NCBI GenBank assembly: GCA_017410525.1
Contig: JAFQQQ010000002.1
Coordinates: forward strand, 124,001 to 188,000
Direction: 5' to 3'
From: Bacilli bacterium
GTDB taxonomy: Bacteria; Bacillota_I; Bacilli_A; RF39; UBA660
Length of the DNA stretch: 64,000 nucleotides
Shown here: positions 7,112-15,937 of the stretch, in pieces
How the letters are laid out: each line of letters starts with the position of its first letter
How positions within the stretch are numbered: position 1 is the first letter of the stretch
Translations under genes and position numbers: made by a program
Notes under the pieces: model-generated
The model's database searches: none
What the model saw: only the letters and a program-made list of their open reading frames with translations
What the model was told of the DNA's origin: nothing

Positions 7112-7113
<2 letters not shown>
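6939..7113 (+). terminator. Five consecutive hairpins ending in an intrinsic terminator
   Basis: Between the convergent zinc-ribbon gene and the relaxase gene lie TTTTCAT/ATGAAAA (6939-6961), AAAGGGA/TCCCTTT plus T-run (7010-7028), TATTGGC/GCCAATA nested in CACAC/GTGTG (7029-7063), CTAAAAT/ATTTTAG (7067-7083) and ACGAGCT/AGCTCGT followed by six T (7093-7113). The second and last look like + strand terminators. The others are unexplained and may be protein-binding or transfer-related sites. Confidence 0.65.
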
Positions 7114-10202
<3,089 letters not shown>

Positions 10203-13798: not shown

Positions 13799-14122
13799 GT
13801 GCTTAATCAAGCAGTTTTAGTTGGGAGAATTGTTAAAGATCCCGAATTAAAAGATACAGAAAAAGGTAAGGTTACAAATATAACTTTAGCTGTTCCTAGA
13901 TCGTTTAAAAACACAAATGGAGAATATGATACGGACTTTATTTCTTGCGTTTTGTGGAAAGGTGTTGCTGAGAGTACTGTTGAATATTGTAAAAAAGGTG
14001 ACCTTGTAGGAATCAAAGGTCGTATTCAAACAAGAGATGTAGAACTTGAAGATGAAACACATAAAAAATATGTAGAAGTTATAGCAGAAAAAGTTACATT
14101 TTTATCTAGTAAGAAAGATTAA
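13799..14122 (+). CDS. ssb: Single-stranded DNA-binding protein, short form
   Basis: A 107-residue OB-fold SSB. It begins at the GTG at 13799 (MLNQAVLVGRIVKDPELK) behind AGGAGGAAAGATT and contains VTNITLAVPRSF, TDFISCVLWKG and GDLVGIKGRIQTR. It binds single-stranded DNA in replication or repair. It ends soon after the OB fold (FLSSKKD) and has no acidic DDDIPF-type tip, so it may be a secondary SSB or a C-terminally damaged one. A 126-bp copy of its 3' end at 15470-15595 ends differently (SSKKQEEAE), suggesting that this terminus was remodelled. Confidence 0.92.
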   Translation: MLNQAVLVGRIVKDPELKDTEKGKVTNITLAVPRSFKNTNGEYDTDFISCVLWKGVAESTVEYCKKGDLVGIKGRIQTRDVELEDETHKKYVEVIAEKVTFLSSKKD

Positions 14123-14148
14123 GAAGCAGAGAATAATCTGCTTCTTGT
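14121..14148 (+). terminator. ssb terminator hairpin overlapping the stop codon
   Basis: AAGAAGCAGA/TCTGCTTCTT (14121-14130 and 14137-14146) with a weak TTGTTTT tail. It overlaps the ssb stop and is followed after 5 nt by the ribosome binding site of the DUF1016 gene. The duplicate ssb end lacks the right arm. Confidence 0.6.
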
Positions 14149-14162
14149 TTTATAGGAGGTTT

Positions 14163-15053
14163 ATGAATTATTATAATGAAATTAGAAACGAAATAATAAA
14201 CAATGAAATAAATAGAAAAGTTAAAAATTATTCAATAAATAAAAGTGATTTGAATGCTTATTATAATGTTGGGAAAATACTTAGTGAAGCAGGTAAGCAT
14301 TATGGTGAAGGAATTATAAAAGAATATTCTCAAAAACTAAAAAATGAATTAGGTAAGAACTATAGTGTTAGGCTGTTATATAGAATTTTAAAATATTATA
14401 ATTTTATCAAAGCATCAAAATTGCCGACACTGTCGGCAAAATTATGATGGAGTCATTATGATGAAATTTTAAAGTTTGATGATATTAGCAAAATTTTATA
14501 TTATATTAATATTAGTGCACAACATAATTTATCTATTAGGCAATTAAGAGTTAGAATTAAATCCAATGAATATGAAAGATTAGATGAGAGTACTAAAAAC
14601 AAATTAATTATCAAAGAAGATTATAGTGTAATCGACTTTGTTAAAAATCCTATAATTATAAAAAATAAAAATAACTATGGAATTATATCTGAGAAATTAT
14701 TACAAAAACTAATACTTGAAGATATAGAATGTTTTATGAATGAATTAGGTAATTCATTTTGTTTTATAGGTAGTGAATATAAAATAAAAATAGGTGACAA
14801 ATATAATTATATAGATTTACTTTTGTATAATATTAAATTTAAATGTTATGTAGTAATAGAACTTAAAATAACAGAATTAAAAAAAGAACATATAGGTCAA
14901 ATACAAACCTATATGAACTATATTGATAAAAACATAAGGACAATGGAAGAAAATAAAACTGTAGGAATAATAATAGTTAGAAAAGATGATAAATATATAA
15001 TGGAATATTGTAGTGATGAAAGATTATTAACTAGAGAATATATAATTATTTAA
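14163..15053 (+). pseudogene. DUF1016 / PD-(D/E)XK nuclease gene (YhcG type) with one in-frame TGA
   Basis: A single frame of 297 codons broken only by TGA at 14445-14447. The N-terminal DUF1016 part has YYNVGKILSEAGKHYGEGIIKEYSQKL. After the stop the same frame gives WSHYDEILKFDD, LSIRQLRVRIKSNEYERL, and the nuclease core YNYIDLLLYN with the ELK of VVIELKITELKKEHIGQI. In the homologous second copy the TGA position is AGT (LSWSHY), so a Ser codon was probably lost; TCA to TGA needs one change. TGG is used for the next Trp, so recoding is unlikely. The family is a nuclease group linked to DNA processing and often found in defence regions. AGGAGGTTT precedes the ATG at 14163. A perfect palindrome lies just before the stop. 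Confidence 0.85.
14421..14439 (+). repeat. Perfect 19-nt palindrome inside DUF1016 copy 1
   Basis: TTGCCGACACTGTCGGCAA: 9-bp arms around one central C. It starts exactly on a codon (Leu-Pro-Thr-Leu-Ser-Ala) and ends two codons before the in-frame TGA. There is no T-tract. The same codons in copy 2 hold a different perfect palindrome. Confidence 0.95.
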
Positions 15054-15399
15054 ATTTTCTTACTAATTTTTTTACAAAACATTTACTTACATTTTTTCTT
15101 TTTATATTGTTTTCTAGTAACACATTTTCAAAAGAAATTAAATTGTTATCTATCATTACAAAATCTTCATTTATTTTTACATCTATTATATTTTTACTAT
15201 CTTTTAATTCTTTTTTACTATCTTCTATAAATAGATCTATAAAAGTATCATTTTCTCTTTTATAAAGTAAAGTGCGTTTTTTAAAACTTATATCATACGT
15301 TGTATTTGATAATGATAGTGGTGCAAAATGTGGTCCATAATTTAAATTAGATTTGTTTAGAGTATATATATCACCAATAAATAGTTTATTTAGTTTCAT
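15046..15399 (-). CDS. Hypothetical protein, 117 aa
   Basis: Not recognised. A 117-residue soluble protein with a good AAGAGGTGTTATT ribosome binding site and a TATAAT box at about 15425. It is convergent with and overlaps the last 8 bp of the DUF1016 gene. It lies exactly between the two copies of the ssb 3' end, so it belongs to the duplicated or inserted segment. The sequence has alternating strands (KLFIGDIYTLNKSNLNYG, KRTLLYKRENDTFIDLFI). A partner or regulator of the nuclease is possible from position only. Confidence 0.6.
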   Translation of the reverse strand: MKLNKLFIGDIYTLNKSNLNYGPHFAPLSLSNTTYDISFKKRTLLYKRENDTFIDLFIEDSKKELKDSKNIIDVKINEDFVMIDNNLISFENVLLENNIKRKNVSKCFVKKLVRKFK

Positions 15400-15469
15400 A
15401 ATAACACCTCTTTTCTTATAAATCTATTATAGCATAAAAGGATATAGTTTGTATCACCATTTGTCATTA

Positions 15470-15595
15470 GTAGGAATCAAAGATCGTATTCAAACAAGAG
15501 ATGTAGAACTTGAAGATAAAACGCATAAAAAATATGTAGAAGTTATAGTAGAAAAAGTTACATTTTTATCTAGTAAGAAACAAGAAGAAGCAGAG
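15470..15595 (+). pseudogene. Duplicate of the 3' end of ssb (126 bp)
   Basis: About 94 percent identical to 14006-14131, with roughly seven substitutions and no gaps. It encodes VGIKDRIQTRDVELEDKTHK... through FLSSKKQEEAE and a stop. It has no start and no OB-fold N-terminus, so it is a dead fragment. Its longer, acidic ending may be the original ssb terminus. It directly precedes the second DUF1016 remnant, just as intact ssb precedes the first. Confidence 0.9.
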
Positions 15596-15637
15596 TAGTT
15601 TGAAGTTGTCAACAAAAACAGACAATTAAAAAGCATT

Positions 15638-15937
15638 AATTGATAATGAAATATATTCAAAAGGAATATAAAGAGTTAAAATTTATTTTGAAATAGGGAA
15701 GGACTTTATGGAATGGGCAGTAAGTATGGTCAAAATATTATTCAAAAATATTCAGATAAATTAATGTTAGAAGTTGGGAAAAAATATAACAAAAGAACTT
15801 TATTTAGGATGAGATAATTTTATTTGTTATTTAGTAATAAAAAAGTGTCCCCATTGGGGACACAATTAAGTTGGAGTCATTATATAGTTTTGATGTCAAT
15901 AAAAGATATAAATCAAACTAATTATATTTTAAAATAA
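15638..15937 (+). pseudogene. Decayed, C-terminally truncated second DUF1016 gene
   Basis: Recognisable pieces in order: LIDNEIYSK, then YFEIGK after a frame change, SKYGQNIIQKYSDKLM and LEVGKKYNKRTLFRMR. A TAA follows at 15815, and the same frame then gives FYLLFSNKKV, SPLGTQLSWSHYIVLMSI and KDINQTNYILK. It has at least one frameshift and stops, and lacks the whole nuclease domain. Where it overlaps copy 1 it differs clearly in sequence, so it is a separate family member rather than a recent duplicate. Confidence 0.85.
15845..15863 (+). repeat. Perfect 19-nt palindrome inside DUF1016 copy 2
   Basis: GTGTCCCCATTGGGGACAC: 9-bp arms around one central T, in the codons that align with the palindrome of copy 1. 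It is flanked by AAA before and AATTA after, as in copy 1. It encodes Val-Ser-Pro-Leu-Gly-Thr, just before QLSWSHY. Confidence 0.95.

Follow-up and report, generated by a model that had tools for sequence, protein, structure and literature searches.

Genes of the YhcG/DUF1016 family carry, within their own coding sequence, a palindrome that is under selection as a DNA dyad, and this feature is general to the family. The palindrome itself, the selection acting on it, its symmetry, its gene specificity, the coupling between its bases and residues of the encoded protein, and the lack of further good sites in the tested genomes are all shown at the level of sequence. Very likely, the palindrome is the DNA site recognised by the protein of the same gene; support for this is strong, and physical binding is inferred in the absence of binding data. 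If so, a DNA-binding nuclease and its cognate site share one coding sequence, whose letters have to serve the protein and, at the same time, fit that protein's DNA preference.

A PD-(D/E)XK nuclease was predicted for YhcG/DUF1016 in 2005, with an N-terminal domain of unknown role (PMC1189080). The genes described here are members of this family (Pfam PF17761 plus PF06250, COG4804), and candidate phage-defence models match them (PADLOC PDC-S02). The family literature calls the N-domain unknown and describes neither a DNA target nor an intragenic palindrome, and no function was given for YhcG/DUF1016 in the papers that we found. No paper on a DUF1016 palindrome or DNA target was found in the open-access literature, preprint servers being outside the search. 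The parts are of known kinds, and their arrangement fits no described system found in that literature. The present finding supplies a testable target and a testable function for the N-domain.

Palindromes in the window and in the host genome

The window (the whole stretch of 64,000 nucleotides that was analysed) contains two DUF1016 copies (Table 1). The palindromes of copy 1, TTGCCGACACTGTCGGCAA, and copy 2, GTGTCCCCATTGGGGACAC, both have perfect 9-bp arms with a single central base, occupy identical codons in the two copies, and are flanked by AAAA on the 5' side and AATT on the 3' side. No other GC-rich 9+1+9 palindrome is present in the window, which is 26% GC. An earlier note had claimed two perfect 19-nt palindromes with 9-bp arms in the same codons of both copies; this held, and the coordinates were confirmed. 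The note had spoken only of two genes, not noticing that both copies are decayed pseudogenes, and it had missed that the other three DUF1016 copies of the host genome are also palindromic and that the feature is family-wide.

Copy 1 has an in-frame TGA (14445-14447) inside its LSWSHY motif, and owing to this stop codon the Pfam domains DUF1016_N and YhcG_C are found in it as two pieces. Copy 2 is missing most of its 3' half; its palindrome recurs identically in an intact gene of another genome (L186). Within the 1.04-Mb host genome there are five DUF1016 copies with five different palindromes, four of them perfect and one with 8/9 pairs, the three copies outside the window carrying GGTGGCCCACTGGGCCACT (8/9 pairs), TTGAACCCAGTGGGTTCAA and GGTGCGACAGTGTCGCACC. 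Relatives have up to 17 DUF1016 copies per genome, often in tandem.

Several observations concern the neighbourhood. Ahead of each DUF1016 copy lies a duplicated 126-nt stretch of an ssb-like gene (the two are 94% identical), and the ssb-DUF1016 unit was apparently duplicated in tandem and then decayed. A 117-aa ORF without any Pfam match lies between both copies. Elsewhere in the window, a relaxase-like ORF adjoins a large serine-recombinase-like ORF, as judged by eye without a family search; on this by-eye evidence only, a mobilisable element beside the DUF1016 region is suggested.

Table 1. Positions of features in the window
Feature	Position	Strand	Basis
DUF1016/YhcG-family gene copy 1, pseudogene	14163..15053	+	Pfam DUF1016_N and YhcG_C; PF17761 hit with 1 TGA
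Putative self-recognition site 1, 27 bp, AAAA-TTGCCGACA-C-TGTCGGCAA-AATT; core palindrome 14421-14439	14417..14443	.	Palindrome, clamps, code agreement
Predicted first HTH recognition helix codons, copy 1 (S-V-R-L-L-Y-R...); specificity residues R 14370-14372, Y 14379-14381, R 14382-14384	14364..14399	+	Covariation; helix 70-84 of a close relative's AlphaFold2 model
Predicted second recognition helix codons, copy 1 (S-I-R-Q-L-R-V-R); specificity residues I 14535-14537, R 14538-14540	14532..14555	+	Covariation with half-site positions -3 and -2; helix 126-134
Probable PD-(D/E)XK nuclease domain (YhcG_C), copy 1	14640..15014	+	Pfam E 2e-35; near-complete conservation of catalytic E, D, K among 260 relatives
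DUF1016 copy 2, decayed N-terminal-domain remnant, internal stops	15725..15937	+	PF17761 hit with 2 TAA; translation
Putative self-recognition site 2, 27 bp, AAAA-GTGTCCCCA-T-TGGGGACAC-AATT; core palindrome 15845-15863	15841..15867	.	Palindrome; same palindrome in L186; code agreement
Predicted first recognition helix codons, copy 2 (N-K-R-T-L-F-R)	15788..15808	+	Translation aligned with coupled columns
ssb-like gene piece ahead of copy 1	14006..14131		
ssb-like gene piece ahead of copy 2	15470..15595		
117-aa ORF	15046..15399	-	
Relaxase-like ORF and serine-recombinase-like ORF	7112..10202	-	By eye

Selection for pairing across the family

The sample comprised 402 loci, taken from viral contigs and from genomes of Bacillota, Bacteroidota, Pseudomonadota, Spirochaetota, Chloroflexota and archaea, and an iterated HMM search gave 383 DUF1016 ORFs. 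The family is common: in one Bacteroidota class, 57 of the 129 genomes examined have a member, and E. coli K-12 does too. At least 7 of 9 positions near the site are paired in 353 of 413 aligned segments, which contain 308 distinct palindromes. When an in-frame palindrome plus clamp was sought anywhere in frame in distinct DUF1016 ORFs of at least 250 aa, 308 of 328 carried one, the chance rate for this criterion being approximately 0.1 per ORF by a hand estimate; a recognisable site is absent from about 6% of the 328.

Synonymous codon shuffles, which preserved the protein and the codon usage, were made for 318 genes. Perfect 9/9 palindromes numbered 94 versus 0.2 expected, and those with at least 8/9 pairs numbered 207 versus approximately 6 expected, while palindromy in a control region 90-120 nt downstream in the same genes was at the shuffle level. 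The earlier note had proposed this comparison with codon shuffles; the excess is strong and refutes a local coincidence. The palindrome might still be regarded as a coincidence or a by-product of coding constraint, with a peptide such as xQTLSxQ giving CAGACACTGTCTG, and the loosely conserved peptide around the core (T/P-L/V-S/G) speaks for this. However, shuffles of the very same peptides yield the almost negligible number of perfect sites given above, and the encoded peptides vary widely, yet the pairing is kept; such an explanation is all but excluded.

The consensus dyad is AAWW-N7-CA-N-TG-N7-WWTT, 27 bp including its A/T clamps, with alternative cores (CAACTTG, CAGGCTG and GGAGTCC) by subfamily. 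Watson-Crick pairing holds for pairs 2-8 in 94-98% of 247 distinct sites, and positions 10-12 on both sides, outside the palindrome, are nearly all A or T; these clamps are kept in AT-rich and GC-rich members alike. The site lies approximately 290 nt from the first ATG, with its centre mostly 12 nt before the L of (L)SWSHY, where it coincides with base 1 of an NTG codon. In this register, wobble bases pair with second codon positions of the opposite arm, which makes the palindrome compatible with the reading frame.

Another possible explanation is that the coding sequence specifies a hairpin of mRNA or antisense RNA, serving for instance in translational control or attenuation. Transcribed palindromes are able to fold, and in AT-rich members the opposite-strand poly-A flank reads like a terminator. 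However, the mismatched pairs are G-T in 30 cases versus A-C in 38 (p = 0.40), with no G-U tolerance on either strand, and DNA recognition is preferred to an RNA hairpin because the mismatches show no G-U preference. Moreover, the A/T clamps are conserved outside the pairing region, matching copies occur outside coding sequence too, and a hairpin leaves the HTH residue-base code described below unexplained. We consider an RNA hairpin very unlikely, and the option of an mRNA hairpin raised by the earlier note is not supported.

Several loci deviate from the single-site arrangement. In L156, L316, L348, L373 and E. coli yhcG (L403), two to three palindromes are present in an expanded loop, with units of approximately 30-50 nt repeated in frame, which might be duplicated or added sites. 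In one subfamily (KEYSYKIPWSHN; L173, L197, L396 and L021), the coding-sequence site has apparently been lost, with no matching site nearby. Pseudogene fragments with stops or frameshifts (L178, L410, L412, L413, L416, L417 and L426) retain 8/9 or 9/9 palindromes; pseudogene age was uncontrolled, and this retention, which may reflect only youth, is not counted as evidence.

Coupling between predicted recognition helices and half-sites

For the covariation analysis, protein pairs were compared at matched overall identity, column differences being set against half-site differences. The coupled columns are S-x-x-N-L-x-x (-24 to -18), +3/+6/+7 and +31/+32/+35, and the columns co-varying with the half-site fall in two predicted HTH recognition helices. 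Arg at -22 goes with G at -7 in 125 of 126 cases, K or Q at -22 going with C; Glu at -19 goes with C at -8 (24/24), K/R at -19 with G, and W/Y/F/M at -19 with T at -8 (80/80); R at -18 goes with C at -5, and N/Q with A; K/R at +31 goes with C at -3 (65/67), and V with A; and Arg at +32 is always accompanied by C at -2 (203/203). These residue-base tables are near-deterministic and constitute a chemically classical HTH-DNA code, learnable from hundreds of natural protein-site pairs, since every protein carries its own site along. In practice, this could provide mutually orthogonal DNA-binding domains whose sites are known.

Among 128 phylogenetically independent sister pairs, the coupled column ranked first of 264 at all seven half-site positions tested (p from 1e-4 to 3e-14), column +35 being second for base -4. 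With whole 60%-identity clusters held out, bases -8, -7, -5, -4 and -3 were predicted with 79-93% accuracy versus a baseline of 45-54%, and positions -6 and -2 showed little gain over baseline. These cross-validation accuracies are somewhat optimistic, as the coupled column pairs were chosen on the full dataset. When palindromes were ranked from the helices under the same hold-out, the own palindrome fell in the top 2% (median), and paralogues of the same genome favoured their own site in 198 of 230 contests. Only about 5% of pairs at 60-70% protein identity share a half-site. In the window, the half-site of site 1 fits the code with the residues of copy 1 at five positions (R-22/G-7, Y-19/T-8, R-18/C-5, I+31/A-3 and R+32/C-2), and site 2 fits copy 2 at the three positions still present (R-22/G-7, F-19/T-8 and R-18/C-5).

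In E. coli K-12, yhcG has three tandem palindromes, at approximately codons 105, 118 and 131, all with CAGAC-N-N-TGTCTG-like cores; in O157 it has one perfect palindrome, CGCCAGACAGTGTCTGGCG; and the O102 allele carries GTGCAGACACTGTCTGCAC, its helix changing from SAKNLRQ to STRNLWQ. Relative to K-12/O157, K to R at -22 accompanies C to G at -7, and R to W at -19 accompanies G to T at -8: helix and site switch together, with the substitutions that the family code demands. If both substitutions (K to R at -22 and R to W at -19) were made in K-12 YhcG, its code-expected preference would change from CGCCAGACA to GTGCAGACA, an inference made without binding data. Beyond the coding sequence, a conserved site is found 28 nt past the yhcG stop codon, and some strains also have one just after gltD.

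The sites are specific to their own genes. A search of each locus with its own palindrome gave 45 further copies (up to 2 mismatches), versus 3 when palindromes were swapped between loci. Such second copies either keep an offset that is fixed within a subfamily (-108 nt for several YhcG genes of Bacteroidota, +183 nt for genes of the SWTNN type, -54 nt elsewhere) or lie directly beside the gene, and clamped sites occur at 136/Mb within 300 nt outside genes versus approximately 10/Mb further off. One gene, L319, has no coding site; a site approximately 45 nt upstream of its ATG fits its own helices. Across 20 related genomes, one class of sites had exact matches in DUF1016 genes only (7/7), the two other matches having 2 mismatches each and not being palindromes. 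When 3 mismatches were allowed against the palindrome of copy 1, all 7 places that matched in 11 genomes coincided with DUF1016 genes. No other good sites were found in the genomes tested. One option put forward in the earlier note, a recognition or self-control site for the encoded nuclease, is strongly supported by the covariation code, the second copies and the symmetric A/T clamps.

Alternatively, a mobile palindromic element, similar to REP or Rickettsia palindromic elements, might have been inserted repeatedly at one point of the gene. Such elements are alike in placing a palindrome inside a reading frame, and some DUF1016 genes hold two to three site units in inserted stretches. However, related-genome searches give exact matches in DUF1016 genes only, and the sequences differ per gene, tracking the protein helices; unlike those elements, DUF1016 sites are short and undispersed, and co-vary with the protein of the host gene. 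This alternative is very unlikely. The swapped palindromic insert, also suggested earlier, fails as a dispersed element in view of the matches in the 20 genomes, and may describe only local site duplication within some genes, such as yhcG of E. coli K-12.

A viral target class for DUF1016 palindromes was also considered. A search of IMG/VR with three palindromes returned 19 contigs, with 5 sites in DUF1016 genes bearing A/T clamps; the remaining 14 contigs gave no DUF1016 hit, and their clamps were mostly missing. As the matches outside DUF1016 are mostly unclamped, there is no sign of such a class. Upstream of L387 and downstream of L346, several clamped DUF1016-type palindromes with differing half-sites lie within approximately 250 nt of a single gene. 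These may be what is left of other DUF1016 genes, or may serve other family members.

Protein domains and possible roles of the site

In an AlphaFold2 model of a close relative (pLDDT 91 for the whole and 90 for the N-domain), the predicted recognition helices span residues 70-84 and 126-134. The residues encoded by the palindrome fall between both HTH units, in a loop that is modelled with lower confidence. The top 14 Foldseek hits of the N-domain were all ParB/Noc/Spo0J, and these matches were weak (E ~1, TM 0.3-0.5); DUF1016_N might resemble the ParB/Noc DNA-binding fold, as far as a predicted model and a weak match can tell. There was no Pfam match to a ParB-type N-terminal CTP-binding domain, the N-domain model (residues 1-158) being all helical, and a PDB search by sequence for a structural homologue returned none. 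A few residues switch the specificity of ParB/Noc for parS/NBS (Jalal et al. 2020, PMC7383237). DUF1016 proteins may be like ParB/Noc in their N-domain fold, as far as the weak match to the predicted model goes, and in a palindrome that would be read by a recognition helix plus a later helix. They are unlike ParB/Noc in the nuclease fusion, in having no CTPase domain in Pfam, and in having the site within their own gene; moreover, DUF1016 sites differ from gene to gene and change quickly, whereas each ParB/Noc family keeps its parS/NBS specificity. For the C-domain, Foldseek gave a match to EndoMS/NucS, and the catalytic residues are kept in the aligned relatives (E in 258/259, D in 255/255 and K in 252/252). 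Judged by its E...D...(E/D)xK residues, this domain is very likely a PD-(D/E)XK nuclease, although nuclease activity is inferred.

Our preferred reading, likely when taken as a whole, is that the palindrome is the cognate DNA-binding site of its own gene's protein and serves autogenous control; binding, dimerisation and repression are inferred. In this reading: the DUF1016/YhcG protein would act as a dimer, as inferred from site symmetry; its ParB/Noc-like N-domain, with two recognition helices per subunit, would read the 27-bp dyad, composed of A/T clamps, two 7-nt variable half-sites and the CA-N-TG core; the dyad, about 290 bp inside the gene, would encode a surface loop that lies between the HTH units and is little constrained in protein sequence; helices and site would evolve together, giving each paralogue its own address; the site would tether the PD-(D/E)XK nuclease to its own gene; the dimer would block or roadblock transcription of that gene, keeping a dangerous nuclease scarce; and an operator in the coding sequence would travel with the gene when it moves between genomes.

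Autogenous control is the most likely use of the site, as inferred without expression data; it is favoured because sites lie just upstream of some genes and no other good sites are known from the genomes tested. The site at each gene matches the specificity of that gene's own product, as an autogenous operator should. Like autogenous operators, for example those of restriction-modification controller proteins, the DUF1016 arrangement has a palindrome at the very gene that encodes the DNA-binding protein, in some cases just upstream. Unlike such operators, the one proposed here is usually within the coding sequence and is family-wide, and the regulator is itself a nuclease. Several points speak against autogenous control: most sites lie deep in the coding sequence and not in a promoter, which is unusual for a repressor; specificity diverges faster than simple autoregulation needs; and the nuclease is kept throughout. 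The weak fold match to ParB/Noc and the approximately 6% of ORFs without a recognisable site also count against the preferred reading as a whole.

The main rival, kept beside autogenous control and judged clearly less likely than not, is self-target cleavage, in which the nuclease would cut the site in other copies of the same allele (a sister copy, an incoming mobile element or a paralogue). This would give allele exclusion, gene conversion or homing-like spread, driving fast divergence of specificity. It is favoured by the fast change of specificity, by the constant retention of the nuclease, with essentially invariant catalytic E, D and K, and by the position of most sites far inside the coding sequence. 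Further points in its favour are: the up to 17 copies per genome and the tandem arrays; the quick divergence of half-sites; the clustering of extra sites at gene ends; the truncation of E. coli B yhcG and the IS1 junction of F5505-C1 at the third palindrome; and the listing of the family by PADLOC as a candidate defence system. However, an intact site in its own gene would make cutting suicidal unless blocked, genes with two to three own sites exist, and within-genome avoidance of identical half-sites is a trend that did not reach significance, some genomes having two paralogues with the same half-site. Homing endonucleases are likewise sequence-specific nucleases from mobile, multi-copy genes, but a homing gene interrupts its own target, whereas a DUF1016 gene contains an intact one.

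A bolder reading, which we can only call possible, is a self-recognising nuclease gene whose protein polices copies of its own allele. The protein would be harmless while anchored at its own gene's site or titrated by it, and would attack other copies with the same address, in incoming mobile elements or in paralogues, or be released on loss or degradation of the gene. Specificities would then diversify by negative frequency dependence, which could account for the speed of co-evolution and for arrays of paralogues whose addresses mostly differ.

Turning to the yhcG disruptions of E. coli B and F5505-C1 (L404 and L405), the gene of E. coli B is truncated a few nucleotides past the third palindrome, and in F5505-C1 an IS1 junction lies at the start of the third palindrome. 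Either a preference of the IS for palindromes or repair after cleavage could explain the truncation and the junction.
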